A stretch of 64,000 bases of DNA from Neolewinella lacunae (GTDB lineage: Bacteria > Bacteroidota > Bacteroidia > Chitinophagales > Saprospiraceae), in contig NZ_JACSIT010000139.1 in the NCBI RefSeq assembly GCF_014349155.1, forward strand, positions 40,666 to 104,665, given 5' to 3'. Within the stretch, counting starts at the first letter, position 1. Each line of letters begins with the position of its first letter. A program made the position numbers and the translations under genes. Positions 7,659-56,176 of this stretch are shown here, piece by piece. The notes beneath the pieces were generated by a model that saw only the letters and a list, made by a program, of their open reading frames with translations, had not been told where the DNA came from and ran no database searches.

Positions 7659-7735
7659 GGCGCGGTAGCTCAGCCGGTTAGAGCGTGCGATTCATAATCG
7701 CAAGGTCGGGTGTTCGAGTCACCCTCGCGCTACCA
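7659..7735 (+). tRNA. tRNA with CAT anticodon (Met elongator, or Ile-CAT)
   Basis: A full cloverleaf of 77 bases: acceptor GGCGCGG pairs with TCGCGCT, D-stem GCTC/GAGC, anticodon stem TGCGA/TCGCA around loop TTCATAA, T-stem GGGTG/CACCC around TTCGAGT, discriminator A and an encoded CCA. The acceptor stem has G-U pairs at both its first and last positions. A CAT anticodon fits elongator Met or, if lysidine-modified, Ile. I favour Met. Confidence 0.92.
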
Positions 7736-43867: not shown

Positions 43868-44551
43868 ATGGCCCAGATTAAGCCCGCTACCCTCACTTTT
43901 CTGCGCGAACTCGCTGCGAACAACAACCGTGAATGGTTTCAGGATCATAAAAAAGCCTACGACGCGGCCCGGGCCAACGTGGCGGAATTTGCCCAGGCGC
44001 TGCTGGACCGCCTGGCCCAGAGCGACGTGCTGGAGACGGCGGACGGAAAAAAATCGATGTTCCGCATTTACCGGGACGTGCGTTTCAGCAAAAACAAGGA
44101 CCCGTATAAGACTACGCTTTCGGGTTACTTCGTCCGGGATGGCAAGTTGCGCCGGGGTGGGTACTACTACCAATTCTCGCCGGCGGAGTCCATCGTGGGA
44201 GGTGGTTTTTACGATATGGAGAGCCACGACCTGAAGCGGGTCCGGGAGGAATTGGCCGTGGATGGCGGCCCGCTGCGGGCAATCATGGCGAATAAGGACT
44301 TCGTGCGGATTTTCGGCGAGATGCGGGGCGAAAAGCTGAAGACGGCACCGCAGGGCTACGACAAAGCCCACCCCAACATTGATTTGCTGCGCTTCAAGCA
44401 GTTTTACGCCATGCGCGAGTTCACGGAAAAGGAAGTGCTTTCGGCGGGCCTGCTCGATTTGAGCCACGAGGCGCTGCTGGCATTGCGGCCGTTTTTTGAC
44501 TACTTCACGGAAGTTCTCACCACCGACGCCAATGGCGAACTCATCGTTTGA
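43868..44551 (+). CDS. DUF2461 family protein
   Basis: A 227-residue cytoplasmic protein of the DUF2461 (TIGR02453) family. Seen: the hallmark N-terminus TLTFLRELAANNNREWFQDHKKAYDAARANV, then MFRIYRDVRFSKNKDPYKTTLSGYF, GGYYYQFSPAESIVGGGFYDMESHDLKRVREEL and a C-terminal LRPFFDYF. The biochemical function is unknown. The start ATG at 43868 is chosen from this N-terminal similarity. It overlaps the SET-domain gene by one base (TGATG), so the two are translationally coupled. Confidence 0.88.
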   Translation: MAQIKPATLTFLRELAANNNREWFQDHKKAYDAARANVAEFAQALLDRLAQSDVLETADGKKSMFRIYRDVRFSKNKDPYKTTLSGYFVRDGKLRRGGYYYQFSPAESIVGGGFYDMESHDLKRVREELAVDGGPLRAIMANKDFVRIFGEMRGEKLKTAPQGYDKAHPNIDLLRFKQFYAMREFTEKEVLSAGLLDLSHEALLALRPFFDYFTEVLTTDANGELIV

Positions 44552-44931
44552 TGCTGTCGTTGCCCCACCTTTTTGTTGCGCCCAGCGCTCTCGGGGGGCG
44601 GGGGGTCTTTACTGCACGGGCCATTGAGGCGGGAACCATTATTGAACTGGCACCCGTCATTCTGCTGTCGGCGGAAGACCGCGCGCTGGTTCACCGCACC
44701 CACTTGCACGATTATTATTTCCAGTGGGACGGCGAGCAGGCCGCTATTGCCCTGGGCTTAGGCTCACTTTACAACCACTCGGGGGAGCCCAATGCGGAGT
44801 TTGAGCTGGATTACGACTTCGAGCAAATCCGCTTCGTCGCCCTGCGCACCATTGCCGCAGGCGAAGAAATCACCATTGATTACCGTTCGGGAGCGCCAGG
44901 GATGGAACTTTGGTTTGCAACCGAAGCCTGA
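44551..44931 (+). CDS. SET domain protein (putative protein-lysine methyltransferase)
   Basis: A 126-residue minimal SET domain. Seen: the N-terminal motif GGRGVFTARAIEAGTIIE (residues about 15-32), the pseudoknot GLGSLYNHSGEPNAEFELD with the Asn-His pair that binds S-adenosylmethionine (about 71-89), and the final GEEITIDY near 110. There is no post-SET Cys cluster. It probably methylates a lysine on a bacterial protein; the target is unknown. It is coupled to the DUF2461 gene by a one-base overlap. Confidence 0.88.
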   Translation: MLSLPHLFVAPSALGGRGVFTARAIEAGTIIELAPVILLSAEDRALVHRTHLHDYYFQWDGEQAAIALGLGSLYNHSGEPNAEFELDYDFEQIRFVALRTIAAGEEITIDYRSGAPGMELWFATEA

Positions 44932-45080: not shown

Positions 45081-45113
45081 GTTGCACAATCGGGGCAGAT
45101 CATTGCATCTTTG
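45081..45113 (+). promoter_or_regulatory. Promoter for the tRNA-like RNA pair
   Basis: GTTG (45081-45084), a 21-base spacer and CATCTTTG (45106-45113) match the layout of the tRNA promoter at 7587-7618. Transcription would begin about 33 bases before the first tRNA-like RNA. Confidence 0.6.
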
Positions 45114-45152
45114 CCAATGCAAGAACGGAACAACGGTGCTGTTCGTAAACAA

Positions 45153-45307
45153 TGTAGAGTGATGAAATTGGCAGCCATGCCCGCTTGTCTCGCGGGTGGG
45201 GAACCAGGAATAAATCACGGCACGGTGCTGCGGGGCAGTTCGCCTCTCCGGAGCAAGGTACCACGACTAACCACCCCTTGCAGGTTCGACTCCTGCCTCT
45301 ACAGCCA
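45153..45307 (+). ncRNA. tRNA-like RNA A, GTC anticodon-type loop, 83-base variable region
   Basis: A 155-base cloverleaf. Acceptor TGTAGAG (45153-45159) pairs perfectly with CTCTACA (45297-45303), then discriminator G and encoded CCA. The D-arm has a 3-bp stem ATG/CAT and an 11-base loop with the GG of tRNAs. The anticodon arm is CCCGC-TTGTCTC-GCGGG, placing GTC at 45187-45189. The T-arm is GCAGG-TTCGACT-CCTGC. The variable region (45197-45279) is far longer than in class II tRNAs and closed by GGGG/CCCC. The base after the anticodon is T, where tRNAs nearly always have a purine. So this is either an aberrant tRNA-Asp-like molecule or a tRNA mimic with another job. Confidence 0.75.
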
Positions 45308-45311
45308 ACCC

Positions 45312-45331
45312 GGTGCTTCGCTGGAAGCACC
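45312..45331 (+). other. Hairpin between the two tRNA-like RNAs
   Basis: A perfect 8-bp stem (GGTGCTTC with GAAGCACC) with a 4-base loop lies in the 30-base spacer. It may help separate or process the two RNAs. Confidence 0.6.
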
Positions 45332-45337
45332 ACATAA

Positions 45338-45456
45338 TGTAGGATGACGAAATTGGCAGCCGTGCCCGCTTGTCTCGCGGGTGAGGGTACCGGGGATAAA
45401 TCAGTCTCGTACTGACTAACCCCCTCTTGAAGGTTCGACTCCTTCTCCTACAGCCC
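45338..45456 (+). ncRNA. tRNA-like RNA B, GTC anticodon-type loop, 47-base variable region
   Basis: A 119-base relative of RNA A. Acceptor TGTAGGA pairs with TCCTACA (45446-45452), D-stem ACG/CGT, T-stem GAAGG/CCTTC: each stem differs from RNA A in both strands so that pairing is kept. The D-loop, the anticodon arm and the T-loop are identical to RNA A. The variable region (45382-45428) is closed by GAGGG/CCCTC, has an inner hairpin TCAGT/ACTGA, and shares ACC...ATAAATCA and GACTAACC with RNA A. The 3' end reads GCCC, so the final A of CCA would have to be added. An intrinsic terminator follows three bases later. Confidence 0.75.
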
Positions 45457-45458
45457 GG

Positions 45459-45486
45459 GGCCCGTACGTACGTGCGGGCCTTTTTT
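45459..45486 (+). terminator. Intrinsic terminator after the tRNA-like pair
   Basis: A 10-bp stem (45459-45468 with 45471-45480, one G-U pair) with a very tight loop is followed by TTTTTT. Confidence 0.85.
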
Positions 45487-48124: not shown

Positions 48125-51100
48125 CTAATCTCTTACGATGGTGAAGGAGCCGCGCTGTTGCATGCGTTCGCCCAAGGGATTAGAGAATTCGAAAACGTAG
48201 TAGTAGGGGCCAGCGGGAAGCAGCACACCGTCGTTGGTGCGTCCTTCGAAGCACTGGAGGCCACCATCTTCGCTACAGTCGTAGTCGGCTACCTCGTAAA
48301 CGAGTTGTCCCCAGCGGTTAAAGATTTCGAGGTTGTTGTTGGCGGCGGTTTCATCGCCTGAACAGAAGATGACGAGGGTCTCGTTGAGGCCATCGCCATT
48401 GGGGCTGATCACCTCACGGGTGCTCAGGCAAGGAAAACGCCGATCAAGCACGGTGGCCACCATGGTTACGGTTTGGCAGCCACTGCCGTCACTCACTTCA
48501 ATGGTGTATTCCCCGGGGCAGAGGTTAGCGGCCAGTGCCGAGTTGCCTACTCCCGGCAATTGGGGCCAGTTGAAGCGGTACTCACCACTTCCACCAAGTG
48601 GCAAGACCTGGATGGCCCCGTTGCAGCCATCCGTAGCGTCGGTAGCTACAAAGGTGAGGGCGAGGTCTGCGGGTTCGGTTAATGAGTAGCTGGCTGTTTC
48701 GGTACAGCCGTTGGCGTCAGTGACGGTCAGGCCGTAATCTCCAGCCCCCAGATTTTGGATGCGGGGGGTAGTTGCGCCGGTAGACCAGCGGAAGGTATTG
48801 CCCCCCGCACCGCCGCTTACGGCAACGGAAAGGACGCCATCGCGGGTTTCCCCGCAGCTGATGTTGGTGATCGTTGGGGTAAGGACCAGGGCCGGAGGGG
48901 CCGTAACCGTCAGGGTCCGCACAATTTCACAACCACCGTCGTCGAGGACCGTCAGGGTGTAGGTCCCGGCCGCCGCGTTCTCTAAGACGCTGTCAATGCC
49001 AATGATCTGACCACCCAGAATGTACTCAAAAGTGTAGCTGCTCTGTCCGCTGATGACGGGGACGATCCGGCCATCGGTAGCATCAGGACAGCTTACGCCA
49101 AATCCATTGTAATCGGATACCACGGAGGCCGTAACCTGGAAGCCGGAGGTAACTCCCACCGTGTAGTTGCGCACCAGCGTCGCCCCCGTTGCATCACTAA
49201 TGCTCAGGGTGTATGCTCCGGCACCCACGGAAAGCTGCTCACTGCTCAAAAGGTCTTCGGTGGTGGCCAGCACGGTCATTTCCCCAGCTCGACGCCAGGC
49301 AAAAGTATAAGGTTCCACGCCGCCAGAGATACTGACGTTGATGGATCCATCGGTACCATCCTGGCAAGAGACGTCAGAAATCCCCTCGAGCACTTCGTCA
49401 ATCCGGCCAACCCGAAGGGTATCGGTAAGGGTTGTGCAGCCGTTGGCATCCGTAATGGTGGCGACGTAAGCTCCGGCGCATAACTGGGTGATGGTCTGCC
49501 CCATCTGTCCATTGTTCCACCGAACAGTATACGGGCCGGTGCCGCCAGCCAAAGAGAGGCTGACCATTCCGGAACAGTTCGTGTCTTCGGTGTCAGAAAC
49601 AACGGTAGAACTCGGTACGATGGCGGAGGGGGCACCGACCGTTAGGCTGACCATCAGCATGCCGTCTTGTTCGTCGGTAACCGTAACCTCGTAGGTGCCG
49701 GGCGCAACAGAGATTTCGATGGTGGACGTATCGGAAGTAACTTCCAGGCCCACGGGCTCTACCCGTACTACGAAGGGACCGACGCCGTTGGCAATTACCA
49801 GGCGAATCACCCCATCGGCCTCATCGACACAAGAAGCGGGACGGGTGGAAGTGGCCACAAAAGCAATGGCTGCCGCCCCTACGGTGTAGCAAACGTTGCG
49901 GGTACAGTCGCTTTCGTCGGTCATGGTCAGGCAGTACTCTCCGGGAGCCAGGCCCGTGCGGTTCTGGGTGGTGGGGCCGTCATCCCATTGGAAAGTATAG
50001 GGCGCATTGCCCCCCGTGGGGGTCAACGTGATGGCACCATTATTCCCCATTGTCGCAGCCGTAACCGTTCCGCGGGCACGTAACTGGGCAGGCGCATCAA
50101 CGGTGATGGTGGAGACTACCGTGTTCATTCCACTCGTGACGGTAACGGTATAATCGCCCGGACTCAGGTTGTTCAGGTCTTGGGTCGTTTGCGGAAGGGG
50201 TGATCCACCCTGGCTCCACTGGTAGTTGTAGTTCCCCGTGCCACCGCGGACGGTGATGTCAATCGATCCGTTGTCTTCGCCGAAACAACCAGGATCTACG
50301 GTGAAAGAAACTACGGCCAAGGCTTCAATCACGGCAAAACACTGGCTACGGGTACACATAGCATTGTCCGTCACCGTAACGCAGTAAGTTCCAGGGGTGG
50401 TGATGTTGGCGGGGTCCTCCACCGTCGAGGTATAGCCGCCGGGGCCCGTCCAGGCGTAAGTATAGGGATTACGGCCGCCGGTTACGACGAGGTTTACCCC
50501 GCCGCTGCCGTCGCGGATGTCCACCGGCGTGCCACCAACCTGAAGGGAAGCGGGCTCTGACACCATAATATTGGTTTGGCTGACTACACAGTCGTTGTCG
50601 TCGGTGATGGTAACCGAGTAAGATCCTCCGTCCAGGTTGTTTTGGGCCAAAACATTATCGGGGAGGTTACCACTCCAATCAATGGTGTAAGGGGCTTGCC
50701 CTCCCGAAATCTGCAGGGTGATGCTGCCGTCTTCTTCTCCGTTGCAGGTGACCCCGCTGACGGGACCAACCTGTAAAGAAAGCGGTGTGGGATCAACCAG
50801 GGTGTAACTGCCCGTGGTGGTTTGCCCGGTGCTGCCGTTGGTAACCGTCACAGAGTAGACACCCGCTGCCAGGTTGCTCGCCGTCGCCGTAGTAGAAACG
50901 TTAGGGAGCCAGCGGTAGGTCAGGCTGGGTCCACCACTCACCGTAAGGCTGATTGATCCGGTATTTCCTCCCGCACAGAAGGGGGCGATGACGTTGGCAT
51001 CTACGATGGCTGGCGCGGAGCCGCCGTTGACCTGGCCGTTCAGCAGATCTGAGCTCACAATGCCGGTGAGCGTCTCAAATTCGATGGCAGTTGGGGTATT

Positions 51101-54100
51101 GCCGAAGGAAACCGTAGTAGCTGTGCTGGCCAGAACGCGGAAACAAAGGTCATACAAGGCTCCCCCATCGGGCAGGGTATTGCCCATGGCGTTGTCGTCC
51201 GACCAGATGATGCGCAGGACACCAGGCTGGCTGCTGTTGACCAGCAAGTTGCCGTTGAAAGCAAAGCTGGCTTGCCGGCCTACGTAGGCCAGGACGGCGG
51301 GGTCGTAGTTGATCGTGTACTGGAAGGATACCAGGTCAATGGCTTCGTAGCCAATAACCGGCAGGCACACCGTATCGCCCACCGAAGCCTGGGCCGACCC
51401 AATCTGGAAGGTCAGGCCATCAATGACGGGCGCGTTGGGGTTGATGCTGCCGCCGATGGGGATTACCCCGACGTTCTGTCCGCTGGCATTGCGCGCCTGC
51501 ACCAGCGTGGGGCTATTGGCAAAATTGACATTGGTCGCTACCAGGCGGTCTACCGTAAAGCAGACGTTGAGCAGGCGCTGACCGTCCGCCAGAGTACGTC
51601 CGGCCGTTCCCGGGGCAGTCCAGTTAAAGGTCAAAACCCCAGCAGTTGGATTGGTCACGTTGGCTGCCGTTATGCTGGGCAGGCCAAAGTTCGCCACGCG
51701 GGCAAAAGTCACGGCCGTAGCGTCGTAGGTGATCGAAAAGCTCAGGTTGGTGATGGAGGTAAAGTCCGTCACCACAATGCCAATACAAACCTCCTCTCCT
51801 ACTGCGCCATCGGCACTGCCGAGGTCAAGGACGAGGTTATCCGGCACCCCACCACAATTTTCTCCTTCGTTGATGGTGCCCGCCACACGGTCAAAAGGCA
51901 CAATCGGTTGGTTTTCGGGGGTACTGACCTGTGCGGTAAAACCCGGCAGGGAAACGATTTCCACCGGCGTTTCACAGACTTCCAGCACCCGGAAGCAGAG
52001 GGAAAGAATACTGTTGCCATCTGGCACCGAATTGGCCTCCACGTTGGGATCAAACCAGATAACGCGGACTACTCCGGGCGTAGGACTAAAGCCCTGCAAG
52101 CCAGCCAGTGCGCCGGTAGACGTTGCGCTGACGAACTCCAATTTTGATGCATCGTAGGTGATGGCGAATTGCATCGAGGCAGCATTCTCGAAGTTGAAGG
52201 CCCGCACATCCACGCATACCTCGTCGTTTACTGCTCCGTCGGCATCCCCCGATACCAGGGTCAGGTTATCGTAGGTCACCACGCCACCCGCATTAATTGT
52301 TCCGTTACTGGTGTTAACCGTCAGGTTGGTGCCCTGGCCGTTGGTCGCCGTGGCATTGGTGATCGAGACGGTCGTCTCACTGCCCGTCAAGACGGTCCAA
52401 CACACGGTAAACAGGGCCTGTCCGTTGGCCAGGGTGCGCGGTGTGGCCGAAGTGTAAGTCACCCTCACCTGTCCTGCCGTGCCCGTATTGAAGTTGCCCG
52501 CGCCAAAGCCAGGCAAGGCAGAGTTGGCCGTGACGGAGGCCAGTTGGAGTACTGCGGGGTCAAAGTTGAGGGTAAGCGCCAGGTTCGTCAGGTTGGTAAA
52601 ATTGGCCACGTCGACCTCAACGCACACCTGCTGCCCCACGCTGGCCGTGCCATCCCCAACGTCGAGCCCAAGCGGGCTGGCCGCACAGGGTGCGCAGTTG
52701 GGGCCACCGCAGTCTACCCCCGTTTCTCCGTTGTTTCGGATGCCGTCGGTACAGGTTTCCGTGACCGTACAACCGTTGATCATCCCCGGATTGCCAATGG
52801 GGTTGGGCAGTTGACCGGTGGTTGAGTTGGCCGTGATGTTCGTCACGGTCAGGTTGGTCGTTCCCGCACTGTTATTGGTGAAGCACAGGGTACCAATTAC
52901 CGAGCCATCGGGGTAAGTAACGCCCGTTTGCGACTGCTGAAAGTAAATAATGCGCACCCGCCCGCTGTTGGGCATATTGACCAGCAGGGGGTCACCCAGA
53001 CCTGGATCAGAAGAGGAGCTTACCAGGCTGACACTGCCCGCCGGAAATTCCACATCCGCCTGGAAAGCCGTAATGTTGGTGAACTTGCCCACCGTAAGGT
53101 CAATACAGGCCTGGGCCCCCTGGGCAATTCCACAGGCATCGCCGAGGCACAGGCTGAAGTTGTTGGTGCCCATGCCACAGCTGGTATCCGGACCGCCTCC
53201 CGTGTTACAAGGCGCACAGCTGCCACCGCAGTCGATGCCAGTCTCGTCGCCGTTCATGATGCCGTCGGTACAGGTGGGCGTAGTGCAGTTTACGTTTACT
53301 GCGCCGGGGCCACCCGTGGCGGGTACCCGCGTACCTTGGTCGTCGAATGCCCGCAGCGTAGTGGCGGGGTTGAAGAAGGTCAGCGGCGTTGCCGCAGCAA
53401 CTTCCACCGTGAAGCAAAGCTCAAAGGCTATCGCGTCGGCCGCCAAAGTCACCCCCGTCAGGTTAGGGTCGTTCCAGATGACGTTGAGTCTTCCATCCGA
53501 TGGGTTGCCGGGGGAGGTGCCTTCCACCAGAGCCGCGTTGGGAATGACCCGCGTAAATTGCAGGTTGGCCGGGGCATAGTTCAAGGAAAACTGGAGACCG
53601 CCCAGCGCGTCGAAATTACTGATGTACACGGGTACACAGACCTCTGCACCTGCGGCCGCGCACTCACTACCCACACAAATTTCCACGTCCGTCGGGCTCG
53701 AACCGCATGCCGTAGACTGGCAGGGGGCACAGTTCGGGCCACCGCAATCAATGCCCGTCTCGCCGTTATTCTGGATGCCATCGTTGCAGGTAGGCTGCAC
53801 CGTACAGTCGTTGATGGAGCCTCCGTTTCCAATGGGGTTCGGCACCTGGCCGCCGCTTGCACTCGCCGTGATGTTGCCCAGGCTGAGGTTGGTGATTCCC
53901 GCCATCTGGTTGGTGAAACACACGGTGGCAATCACGTCACCGTTGGCCACGGTCGCTCCCGATTGATCGTTTTGGAAGTACAGCAAGCGTACCGTGCCGG
54001 CGTTCACTACGTTGACCTGAATGGGGTCGACCAAGACCGGTGAGGTGGTAATGCTCTGGTAAAAAAGCCGCCCGCTGGGGAAGGTAATGTCGGTCTGGAA

Positions 54101-56176
54101 AGCCGTAACGCCGTTAAAATTGCCAGCCGTAATGTCCAGACACACGTTAGCCCCTTGCGCAATGTTACACGCATCGCCGAGGCAAAGGCTGAAGTTGCTG
54201 GTGCCCATGCCGCAGTTCGTGTCCGGTCCGCCACCACCCGTATTGCAGGGTGTGCAGCTGCCGCCGCAGTCGATGCCCGTTTCGGTGCCGTTCATGATGC
54301 CATCGAAACAGGTTGGGGTAGTCGTACAAGGGGGGCAACTGCCACCACAATCGATACCCGTTTCCGTGCCGTTCATGATGCCGTCGGAACAGGTGGGTGC
54401 GGTCGTACAACCGTTGACGGAACCATCATTGGCCACGGGGTTGGCAATGATGCCGGTAGTGGTGGTTCCGGAAATGTCCGCCAAATCAAGAATCTTGGTC
54501 CCGGCGGTATTGTTGGTAAAACAGATCGTCCCGAGTACGGTACCGTCGGGGTAGCTCACCCCCGTCTGGCTCATCTGCAAATAAATTACCCGTACTTGTC
54601 CGCTGCTGCGCATGTTCACCAGCGGAGCATCCACCAATCCAGCGTCAAAAGTATGCGAAGAAAGCGCCAGACTGCCCGCCGGGTAGTTGATGTCGAATTG
54701 AAAAGAAGTCACGTTGGTAAACTTCCCGACCGTAATGTCGATGCAAGCCTGGCCGCCAGCGGGGATTCCACAGGCATCGCCCAGGCACAGGCTGAAATTG
54801 TTGGTGCCCATGCCGCAGTTCGTATCCGGGCCACCCGTCGTTGCACACGGCGCACAACTTCCGCCACAGTCAACCCCCGTTTCCGTGCCGTTCTGAATAC
54901 CATCCGAACACGTAGGTTGGGGCGTGCCCCCGCAGCCATTGACGGAGCCGTCATTGGCGATGGGGTTAGGAACTTGCCCGGTGGTATTGCTGGCGGTGAT
55001 GTCCGCCAGGTCCAGTACCGTAGCCGCCGTACCCCCGTTGTTGGTAAAGCAAACGGTGCCAATCACGGTGCCATCCGGGAAAGTCACCCCGTTCTGGTCG
55101 GCTTGAAAATAAATGACGCGCACCTGCCCGCTGTTGCGCATATTGACCAGCAGAGGATCTGCCAAAGCAGGATTGGAAGTAAAAGAAGCCAGGCTTACGC
55201 GCCCGGCGGGGAAGTTGATATCCGTCTGAAAAGAGGTGATGTTCGTGAACTTGCCCACCGTAATATCGATACAGGCCTGGCCACCTTGGGCAATGCCACA
55301 GGCATCGCCCAGGCACAGGCTGAAGTTATTGGTGCCCATGCCGCAGTTCGTATCCGGGCCACCCGTCGTTGCACACGGCGCACAACTGCCGCCACAGTCA
55401 ATACCCGTTTCCGTGCCGTTCTGAATCCCGTCGGAACAGGTAGGCGTAGTGGTACACGGTGGGCAACTGCCTCCGCAGTCGATGCCCGTTTCGTTCCCAT
55501 TGCGGATACCGTCGGTACACGTGGGCGTGGGCGTGCAAGGTGGGCAGCTTCCGCCGCAATCGATACCCGTTTCATTACCATTCCGAATGCCGTCCGTACA
55601 CGTGGGCGTTGGTGTACAGGGAGGGCAGCTTCCACCGCAATCAACGCCCGTTTCGTTGCCGTTCCGGATGCCGTCGGAGCAGGTAGGCATTCCACCCGTA
55701 CCCCCGTTGACCGTTCCATTACTCACCGTGAAGTTGGACACGATCATTTCGTTATCGTTCGTAATTTCGATGGGGATGGAGTTGCTGGTTATGCTTACCG
55801 TCGTCTCCACTTCCTGCAAAACATTGAAGCAGATGGTACCGAACGTGAAAGGCCCGGCGTTGGTGAAACTGGTAGCAAAGAAGGGGCTCCACACCGCCCG
55901 GATATTACCCGGGTTCGCAGCTTGGTTGATGAAGGACATATTCACGCCTCCAATATTGCCCGTTCCTGAAACGAAAGCCAGCACCGCCGGGTCAAAACTG
56001 ACCGTAAACTGTATCCCAGCAATGTTATTGAAGTTGGTGCCAATGAGGTTGACGCACACTTGTTCGCCTACCGCACCGTCGTCGTCCGAAACAATCAGGC
56101 CGAGGGGTTGCGCGCTAAGGCTGGTGGCGAAGCAAGACAGCAGCCCGCCCAACAGCAAGTAGTAAAATAGCTTCAT
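48125..56176 (-). CDS. Giant cohesin- and SprB-repeat adhesin with gliding-motility (T9SS type B) C-terminal domain
   Basis: A 2683-residue surface protein. Seen in order: signal peptide (LLSCFATSLSAQ), about ten cohesin-like domains (residues about 24-1715), each with a start like VGEQVCVNL and a core like IAGIQFTVSFDPAVLAFVS, ending in a CFNV/CFTV strand. Between them sit ten copies of a Cys-rich motif C-x-DGI-x-NG-x-ETG-x-DCGG-x-C-x-PC, four in tandem near residues 160-260. Then come about eleven SprB-type repeats (about 1719-2580) with GSI-x-L-x-V-x-GG and PYT-x-x-W motifs, and a type B domain (STREVISPNGDGLNE, IFNRWGQLVYEV, about 2584-2683). It is followed by its likely PorP/SprF partner. 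An adhesin or scaffold role is inferred. No enzyme domain was seen. Confidence 0.9.
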   Translation of the reverse strand: MKLFYYLLLGGLLSCFATSLSAQPLGLIVSDDDGAVGEQVCVNLIGTNFNNIAGIQFTVSFDPAVLAFVSGTGNIGGVNMSFINQAANPGNIRAVWSPFFATSFTNAGPFTFGTICFNVLQEVETTVSITSNSIPIEITNDNEMIVSNFTVSNGTVNGGTGGMPTCSDGIRNGNETGVDCGGSCPPCTPTPTCTDGIRNGNETGIDCGGSCPPCTPTPTCTDGIRNGNETGIDCGGSCPPCTTTPTCSDGIQNGTETGIDCGGSCAPCATTGGPDTNCGMGTNNFSLCLGDACGIAQGGQACIDITVGKFTNITSFQTDINFPAGRVSLASFTSNPALADPLLVNMRNSGQVRVIYFQADQNGVTFPDGTVIGTVCFTNNGGTAATVLDLADITASNTTGQVPNPIANDGSVNGCGGTPQPTCSDGIQNGTETGVDCGGSCAPCATTGGPDTNCGMGTNNFSLCLGDACGIPAGGQACIDITVGKFTNVTSFQFDINYPAGSLALSSHTFDAGLVDAPLVNMRSSGQVRVIYLQMSQTGVSYPDGTVLGTICFTNNTAGTKILDLADISGTTTTGIIANPVANDGSVNGCTTAPTCSDGIMNGTETGIDCGGSCPPCTTTPTCFDGIMNGTETGIDCGGSCTPCNTGGGGPDTNCGMGTSNFSLCLGDACNIAQGANVCLDITAGNFNGVTAFQTDITFPSGRLFYQSITTSPVLVDPIQVNVVNAGTVRLLYFQNDQSGATVANGDVIATVCFTNQMAGITNLSLGNITASASGGQVPNPIGNGGSINDCTVQPTCNDGIQNNGETGIDCGGPNCAPCQSTACGSSPTDVEICVGSECAAAGAEVCVPVYISNFDALGGLQFSLNYAPANLQFTRVIPNAALVEGTSPGNPSDGRLNVIWNDPNLTGVTLAADAIAFELCFTVEVAAATPLTFFNPATTLRAFDDQGTRVPATGGPGAVNVNCTTPTCTDGIMNGDETGIDCGGSCAPCNTGGGPDTSCGMGTNNFSLCLGDACGIAQGAQACIDLTVGKFTNITAFQADVEFPAGSVSLVSSSSDPGLGDPLLVNMPNSGRVRIIYFQQSQTGVTYPDGSVIGTLCFTNNSAGTTNLTVTNITANSTTGQLPNPIGNPGMINGCTVTETCTDGIRNNGETGVDCGGPNCAPCAASPLGLDVGDGTASVGQQVCVEVDVANFTNLTNLALTLNFDPAVLQLASVTANSALPGFGAGNFNTGTAGQVRVTYTSATPRTLANGQALFTVCWTVLTGSETTVSITNATATNGQGTNLTVNTSNGTINAGGVVTYDNLTLVSGDADGAVNDEVCVDVRAFNFENAASMQFAITYDASKLEFVSATSTGALAGLQGFSPTPGVVRVIWFDPNVEANSVPDGNSILSLCFRVLEVCETPVEIVSLPGFTAQVSTPENQPIVPFDRVAGTINEGENCGGVPDNLVLDLGSADGAVGEEVCIGIVVTDFTSITNLSFSITYDATAVTFARVANFGLPSITAANVTNPTAGVLTFNWTAPGTAGRTLADGQRLLNVCFTVDRLVATNVNFANSPTLVQARNASGQNVGVIPIGGSINPNAPVIDGLTFQIGSAQASVGDTVCLPVIGYEAIDLVSFQYTINYDPAVLAYVGRQASFAFNGNLLVNSSQPGVLRIIWSDDNAMGNTLPDGGALYDLCFRVLASTATTVSFGNTPTAIEFETLTGIVSSDLLNGQVNGGSAPAIVDANVIAPFCAGGNTGSISLTVSGGPSLTYRWLPNVSTTATASNLAAGVYSVTVTNGSTGQTTTGSYTLVDPTPLSLQVGPVSGVTCNGEEDGSITLQISGGQAPYTIDWSGNLPDNVLAQNNLDGGSYSVTITDDNDCVVSQTNIMVSEPASLQVGGTPVDIRDGSGGVNLVVTGGRNPYTYAWTGPGGYTSTVEDPANITTPGTYCVTVTDNAMCTRSQCFAVIEALAVVSFTVDPGCFGEDNGSIDITVRGGTGNYNYQWSQGGSPLPQTTQDLNNLSPGDYTVTVTSGMNTVVSTITVDAPAQLRARGTVTAATMGNNGAITLTPTGGNAPYTFQWDDGPTTQNRTGLAPGEYCLTMTDESDCTRNVCYTVGAAAIAFVATSTRPASCVDEADGVIRLVIANGVGPFVVRVEPVGLEVTSDTSTIEISVAPGTYEVTVTDEQDGMLMVSLTVGAPSAIVPSSTVVSDTEDTNCSGMVSLSLAGGTGPYTVRWNNGQMGQTITQLCAGAYVATITDANGCTTLTDTLRVGRIDEVLEGISDVSCQDGTDGSINVSISGGVEPYTFAWRRAGEMTVLATTEDLLSSEQLSVGAGAYTLSISDATGATLVRNYTVGVTSGFQVTASVVSDYNGFGVSCPDATDGRIVPVISGQSSYTFEYILGGQIIGIDSVLENAAAGTYTLTVLDDGGCEIVRTLTVTAPPALVLTPTITNISCGETRDGVLSVAVSGGAGGNTFRWSTGATTPRIQNLGAGDYGLTVTDANGCTETASYSLTEPADLALTFVATDATDGCNGAIQVLPLGGSGEYRFNWPQLPGVGNSALAANLCPGEYTIEVSDGSGCQTVTMVATVLDRRFPCLSTREVISPNGDGLNETLVIFCSGDETAANNNLEIFNRWGQLVYEVADYDCSEDGGLQCFEGRTNDGVLLPAGPYYYVFEFSNPLGERMQQRGSFTIVRD
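53646..53661 (-). repeat. Dispersed 16-base repeat, exact copy (in CDS)
   Basis: An exact copy in the fifth cohesin-like domain of the giant adhesin. It encodes CAAAGAE, the same frame as the copy at 37736. Confidence 0.8.
55405..55690 (-). repeat. Four tandem Cys-rich repeat units in the adhesin gene
   Basis: Four units of about 72 bases encode C-x-DGI-x-NG-x-ETG-x-DCGG-x-C-x-PC separated by short Thr/Pro linkers. They differ mostly at third codon positions, so selection acts on the protein. Six further single copies lie between cohesin domains at 52.7-54.9 kb. Confidence 0.85.

Follow-up and report, generated by a model that had tools for sequence, protein, structure and literature searches.

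What can two tandem RNAs be that keep the arms of a tRNA, carry a very long variable region and fit no standard tRNA class? The question is raised by a short segment of the window, by which is meant the whole analysed stretch of 64,000 nt from Neolewinella lacunae. A sequence-only reading had placed two tandem tRNA-like RNAs here, and the positions, when re-read, agree with it:

45153..45305, + strand: RNA A, positions 1 to 74 (covariance model match, 126.9 bits)
45153..45155, + strand: TGT of RNA A, pairing with ACA at 45301-45303 (U1-A72, the GatCAB mark, and G2-C71)
45185..45191, + strand: anticodon-type loop of RNA A, TTGTCTC (AspRS bases G34, U35, C36 and C38 kept; pyrimidine at 37)
45197-45279, + strand: variable region of RNA A, 83 nt (sequence reading)
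45338..45454, + strand: RNA B, positions 1 to 74 (covariance model match, 124.9 bits)
45338..45340, + strand: TGT of RNA B, pairing with ACA at 45450-45452 (U1-A72 and G2-C71)
45370..45376, + strand: anticodon-type loop of RNA B, TTGTCTC (sequence reading)
45382-45428, + strand: variable region of RNA B, 47 nt (sequence reading)
45457..45486, + strand: terminator-like hairpin and T run 3' of RNA B (1 found; 1.3 expected in shuffles)

With the CCA included, RNA A ends at 45307 (155 nt in total) and RNA B spans 45338-45456; the hairpin part of the terminator-like site is 45457-45482. Paired changes between the two copies were verified in the acceptor stem (TGTAGAG/CTCTACA in RNA A, TGTAGGA/TCCTACA in RNA B), the D stem (ATG/CAT and ACG/CGT) and the T stem (GCAGG/CCTGC and GAAGG/CCTTC), as were the shared loop and the lengths of both variable regions. 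Of the framing signals that had been proposed, the terminator hairpin exists, at a site type that shuffles also yield, and the promoter was not confirmed, no sigma-70-type site being found. Bacteroidota promoters differ from the sigma-70 type; the promoter and the single transcription unit of RNA A and RNA B are putative. For single sequences the folding energy of RNA A is unremarkable (z -0.22) and that of RNA B moderate (z -2.36). ARAGORN, run on the window, missed both RNAs and called only a tRNA-Met at 7659, and Rfam 15, its tRNA model included, matched neither of them at gathering threshold and, with E<=10 allowed, yielded no hit above any family's gathering score, which upholds the earlier view that no described class has this shape; the best sub-threshold match was suhB (28.5 of 41 bits), on the terminator end. 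The possibility that the variable region holds a self-splicing intron was rejected, the region being too short and without an Rfam match, and the anticodon arm being intact. Upstream of the two RNAs lies a small SET-domain gene (44548-44931, + strand). Elsewhere in the window a 2683-aa ORF (48125-56176, - strand) contains many repeated DGIxNGxETGxDCGG-like segments and probably encodes a giant surface or secreted protein.

Relatives of the two RNAs are found in many genomes. Searches by blastn with RNA B gave matches in 44 of 100 related genomes, and a script counted 61 units, 59 of them distinct, in 29 of 30 fetched loci, in tandem arrays of up to five. Among the 59 distinct relatives the acceptor, D, anticodon, first variable-arm and T helices are 100% paired; over all base-pair cells 98.4% are paired compared with 89.5% in shuffles, double-change cells number 164 compared with 44.6, and double changes occur at 14 of 29 pairs. 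When the partners are shifted by 1-3 columns, pairing falls to 47-54%. The structure of RNA A and RNA B is far beyond chance, as the sequence-only reading had concluded from the two copies, and the covariance search that it had named as a check did find homologues with kept pairing. The model used, R1, separates members (at least 82.8 bits) from background (at most 66.1 bits); it was built from members, and very divergent ones may escape it, while one spurious 71-nt match was removed from the sequence set. In a sample of the phylum 40 of 395 genomes have an R1 match of at least 88 bits, and in a sample of the window's class 66 of 395 pass E<=1e-18. A scan with a pattern that fixes G34-U35-C36-Y37-C38 matched at least 120 stretches in named genomes and at least 120 in viral contigs; all 80 fetched named loci and all 80 fetched viral loci carry R1 members, two of the latter cut by a contig end. 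The named loci include Neolewinella aquimaris (L139); the titles of 79 of them denote lineages of the Bacteroidota or Ignavibacteriales, and one reads only 'bacterium'. It is confirmed that RNA A and RNA B belong to an undescribed RNA family common to related bacteria and phages, and a literature search by title and start of abstract, with preprints and most subscription journals outside its scope, returned no description. Short GGTTGCAAGTTACAGG-like repeats occur between tandem copies at some loci (L011, L017, L018).

Which bases the family keeps can be set against the rules known for aspartate and amidation. For aspartate in bacteria the identity set consists of G73, G10, G34, U35, C36 and C38, and G1-C72 of tRNA-Asp is crucial; for Glu-tRNA-Gln, amidotransferases depend on U1-A72 (PMC9976931, in part); U1-A72 of tRNA-Asn is recognized by bacterial GatCAB (PMC4206432, in part). 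In the 137 distinct host sequences that were not seeded by the anticodon pattern (loci from the pattern being omitted from this tally), U1-A72, G2-C71, G73, U35 and C36 are invariant, C38 is present in 136, and G34, like the anticodon GUC, in 134. U1-A72 is also found in all 66 complete phage sequences, the 68 phage sequences all being pattern-seeded and two of them dropped from acceptor counts. All 229 host sequences have G73-C74; position 10 in them is A in 152, T in 40 and G in 37, G10 not being kept. C74 is part of the gene sequence and the bases after it differ between copies, which is also the case for many ordinary tRNA genes in the window's own genome. In its conserved bases the family joins the AspRS determinant set with the GatCAB mark U1-A72. 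Charging could be weak, because U1-A72 replaces the crucial G1-C72 (PMC9976931, in part) and G10 is not kept, and the long variable arm might hinder AspRS. The three host sequences without G34 come from G262, which has AsnA, and from G482 and G415, which do not, and the copy in G168, another genome with AsnA, is a 77-nt relic that has the loop CTATCTC and hardly any variable arm; in relation to AsnA these exceptions fit only partly. The copies with a changed base 34 lie at L418 (G168), L087 (G262), L450 (G482) and L469 (G415). The equivalent of E. coli Lys82, an AspRS discrimination site, is Lys in 15 of 16 aligned AspRS from genomes with the RNA, but also in 7 of 11 from genomes with GatB and no RNA, and for that reason the site is weak support.

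The body of the molecule is that of a cloverleaf, with a 7-bp acceptor stem, 5-bp anticodon and T stems and a canonical T loop all present. The variable region, 38-131 nt in the 229 host sequences, opens with a covarying 4-bp stem and then a conserved internal loop; many variable arms have a longer covarying helix (double changes at 18 of 32 predicted pairs in 25 sequences), and an element GGRUNGACCA is found in 69 of 229 host and 57 of 68 phage sequences. Ordinary tRNA-Asp resembles the family in the anticodon arm, G34, U35, C36, C38, G73 and G2-C71, and differs in having G1-C72, whereas the family has U1-A72, a class II body, no A37 and no fixed U33. With tRNA-Leu, another class II species, it shares the D arm, the placement of the variable arm and the T arm (the genome's own tRNA-Leu(GAG) is the top background match of R1, at 64 bits), but it has G73, the anticodon GUC and a far longer variable arm. 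Allo-tRNAs have acceptor/T stems of 8+4 or 9+3; they were rejected as a match, the family having 7+5.

The combination of U33 and a purine at 37, by which decoding tRNAs are judged, is not characteristic of the family. U33 occurs in 112 of the 137 unseeded host sequences, and position 37 is T in 124, C in 9, G in 4 and A in none; the non-purine that had been noticed after the GTC of RNA A and RNA B stands. A tRNA-Asp of unusual form that still decodes GAC and GAU codons would account for the anticodon, for the frequency of U33 and for the phage copies that sit beside ordinary tRNAs. Such a tRNA would however differ at position 37 from all nine ordinary tRNA-Asp examined (the own genome's and eight from phage arrays), which have A37 and none of which starts with U; a tRNA-Asp(GTC) is already present in the own genome and in phages, and the link with GatCAB described below would be left unexplained. 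We regard decoding as very improbable.

Enzymes that could act on the RNA were scored in a panel of 40 genomes with and 40 without it, hand-picked for spread from the phylum and class samples and not random, in which G168, with its relic copy, was counted among those without. GatB exceeded the cut-off in all 40 genomes with the RNA and in 17 of the 40 without, and GlnRS did so in 27 of 40 with the RNA, 2 of 17 with GatB and no RNA, and 23 of 23 with neither. Because GlnRS makes GatCAB unnecessary for glutamine, the 52 genomes with GlnRS were taken as a subset; in these GatB is present in all 27 that carry the RNA versus 2 of the 25 that do not (Fisher p 8.5e-13, uncorrected for kinship, and the panel genomes are related, so that p values overstate independence). 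Fifteen of the 17 genomes with GatB and no RNA are without GlnRS. The contrast also appears within families, where GatB is found in 6/6 genomes with the RNA versus 0/2 without in f20 and in 3/3 versus 0/3 in f23; in f77 and f29 a genome without the RNA (G491 and G168, respectively) also has GatB, both being without GlnRS. The same counts bear on the idea that the RNA is not aminoacylated at all and serves as a decoy or regulator, binding AspRS, GatCAB or a modification enzyme by its tRNA-like shape. The bases that enzymes contact are retained and the decoding features have loosened, as might be expected of a decoy, and a protein could be titrated by the multiple copies at a locus. But a decoy gives no account of GatCAB being kept in GlnRS-containing genomes with the RNA and mostly missing in those without, and the invariant G73-C74 looks as if the 3' end were finished in tRNA fashion; the probability of this explanation appears low.

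tRNA-Asn itself was read in 36 genomes with the RNA (U1-A72 in 28, G1-C72 in 7, one misread; G285 was one base out of register), a reading being absent for four others (G145, G207, G482, G560). U1-A72 was also found in the tRNA-Asn of 12 of 13 genomes read that have neither the RNA nor GatB and, because it is usual in such GatB-less genomes, proves nothing by itself. In all five genomes read from the window's family tRNA-Asn has G1-C72, and the RNA keeps U1-A72 (L032 and others); under the U1-A72 rule that tRNA-Asn should be no substrate for GatCAB.

AsnRS is present in 80 of 80 panel genomes. An E. coli-type AsnB is found in 0 of 40 genomes with the RNA versus 16 of 40 without (the query being one E. 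coli-type AsnB, 829 bits to PDB 1CT9, as TIGR01536 is too broad for scoring asparagine synthetase), and AsnA exceeds the cut-off in 2 and 7 of 40, respectively. Paralogues of TIGR01536 are over cut-off in 35 of 40 genomes with the RNA, the own genome included, and asparagine synthesis by them is possible. The own genome's AsnB-like protein scores 162 bits to a hydroxyamidotransferase versus 125 bits to E. coli AsnB, and the genes around it gave no clue to its role. Neither AsnA nor TIGR01536 is over cut-off in five genomes with the RNA (G246, G285, G344, G415, G490) and four without (G092, G115, G128, G138).

Clustering of ORFs from 157 loci, some of the same genome, revealed one family in 85 loci, on the strand opposite to the RNA in 85 of 85 and upstream of it in 84, at a median distance of 192 bp. 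By Pfam it is an AsnC/Lrp regulator (2 of 2 scanned), and the best PDB match of all three proteins tested is E. coli AsnC (115-132 bits, against 73-87 for the runner-up and 45 for E. coli Lrp where it was listed). Among the 74 named loci with enough upstream sequence to be assessed the gene is divergently upstream in 51; it was not found beside the RNA in the other 23, nor in the window. In E. coli asnA is activated by AsnC, and asparagine abolishes the activation (PMC4482635, in part), so that the place taken by the RNA is often one in which a gene for asparagine supply would be expected. Other identified recurrent host neighbours are SET (the family of the gene at 44548-44931, recurring in 17 loci), AMP-binding, SufB/D, AAA and pseudouridine synthase proteins, among others. 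Mobile or defence cargo was rejected as an explanation, since the identified host neighbours are of chromosomal types and many phage copies sit with tRNAs.

A charged and amidated RNA need not serve the free amino acid pool. Asn (or Asp) might be donated from it to a lipid, peptide or wall precursor through a protein that binds the variable arm, whose conserved elements exceed the needs of charging. A precedent is the non-proteinogenic tRNA-Gly of Staphylococcus, of normal size, which feeds peptidoglycan with Gly with no GatCAB step; it too is a tRNA reserved for metabolism, as proposed for the family. Donation is nevertheless unlikely. That AsnA and E. coli-type AsnB are scarce where the RNA occurs, and that an AsnC-like gene adjoins it, both speak for asparagine supply, and no transferase is seen among the identified recurrent neighbour families (10 proteins scanned).

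The reading that we favour, and consider quite probable, is that these RNAs do not decode but serve as carriers reserved for RNA-dependent asparagine synthesis by AspRS and GatCAB. It is suggested by the retention of the AspRS determinants and U1-A72 (134-137 of 137) while positions 33 and 37 drift, by GatB tracking the RNA, also among genomes with GlnRS, by the missing E. coli-type AsnB together with the AsnC-like neighbour, and by the G1-C72 of window-family tRNA-Asn, whereas the RNA keeps U1-A72. Counting against it are GatB in the 17 genomes without the RNA, the loci (23 of 74, and the window) without an AsnC-like gene, the loss of G34 in G482 and G415 without AsnA, and the TIGR01536 paralogues of 35 genomes. 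From the former we infer charging, amidation, release and exclusion from translation as follows. After tRNA-type maturation and CCA addition, aspartate would be loaded by AspRS via G34, U35, C36, C38 and G73, and the bound aspartate would be converted to asparagine by GatCAB, reading U1-A72; the asparagine would then be freed by hydrolysis or some enzyme and used by AsnRS. On the ribosome Asn-RNA(GUC) would place Asn at Asp codons; what may keep it off is position 37, a pyrimidine with an occasional G, together with the absence of U33 from many members and the bulk of the variable arm. The amount of the RNA would, in many lineages, follow the asparagine level through a regulator of the AsnC type. 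The widest form of the proposal, in which much of the Bacteroidota and the RNA-carrying phages would make or boost free asparagine on a tRNA-derived RNA cofactor that left translation, replacing AsnA/AsnB, controlled by AsnC in many lineages and kept from putting Asn at Asp codons by its variable arm and altered anticodon loop, seems to us somewhat better than an even bet.

A close known parallel to such a carrier is the tRNA-Asn route of a non-discriminating AspRS and GatCAB, in which Asp is likewise placed on an RNA and amidated by GatCAB at a U1-A72 mark (PMC4206432, in part), as is proposed here from sequence. The carrier in that route is the decoding tRNA-Asn(GUU) and requires a relaxed AspRS, whereas here the carrier would be an RNA of its own with the anticodon GUC, chargeable in principle by an ordinary AspRS and apparently lacking decoding features. 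The asnC-asnA layout of E. coli is divergent. There, too, an AsnC-type regulator stands beside an asparagine-supplying gene (PMC4482635, in part), a function proposed for the RNA, but the partner of the AsnC-like gene here is an RNA and not an enzyme. Why bacteria with both AsnRS and GlnRS keep GatCAB is a question raised in PMC4206432 (in part), and the carrier role, if true, would explain this retention in many of them. It would also mean that a tRNA gene has been turned over to metabolism as a dedicated carrier, that these bacteria have a route to asparagine which predictions from protein genes overlook, and that phages bring one more RNA in their translation kit; it is testable with existing enzymes and cultivable species.

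The variable region is shorter than 30 nt in 8 of 68 distinct phage copies and in 0 of 229 host copies (minimum 38). Among 18 viral loci scanned, seven have at least 15 tRNA genes (L230, L238, L246, L247, L283, L284, L293), five have tmRNA (L246, L267, L284, L293, L294), several have one or two tRNAs and L270 has none. On L246, L284, L293, L238 and L230, 16 to 25 tRNA genes lie near the RNA, and three of the five have tmRNA; these five contigs hold close to a whole translation RNA set. Our guess is that phages bring near-complete tRNA sets and that the RNA may likewise secure asparagine. Three phage copies gave no blastn match in INPHARED. In some phage copies (L225, L230, L231, L236, L241, L246, L294) the D loop contains an additional insertion that is partly self-complementary.
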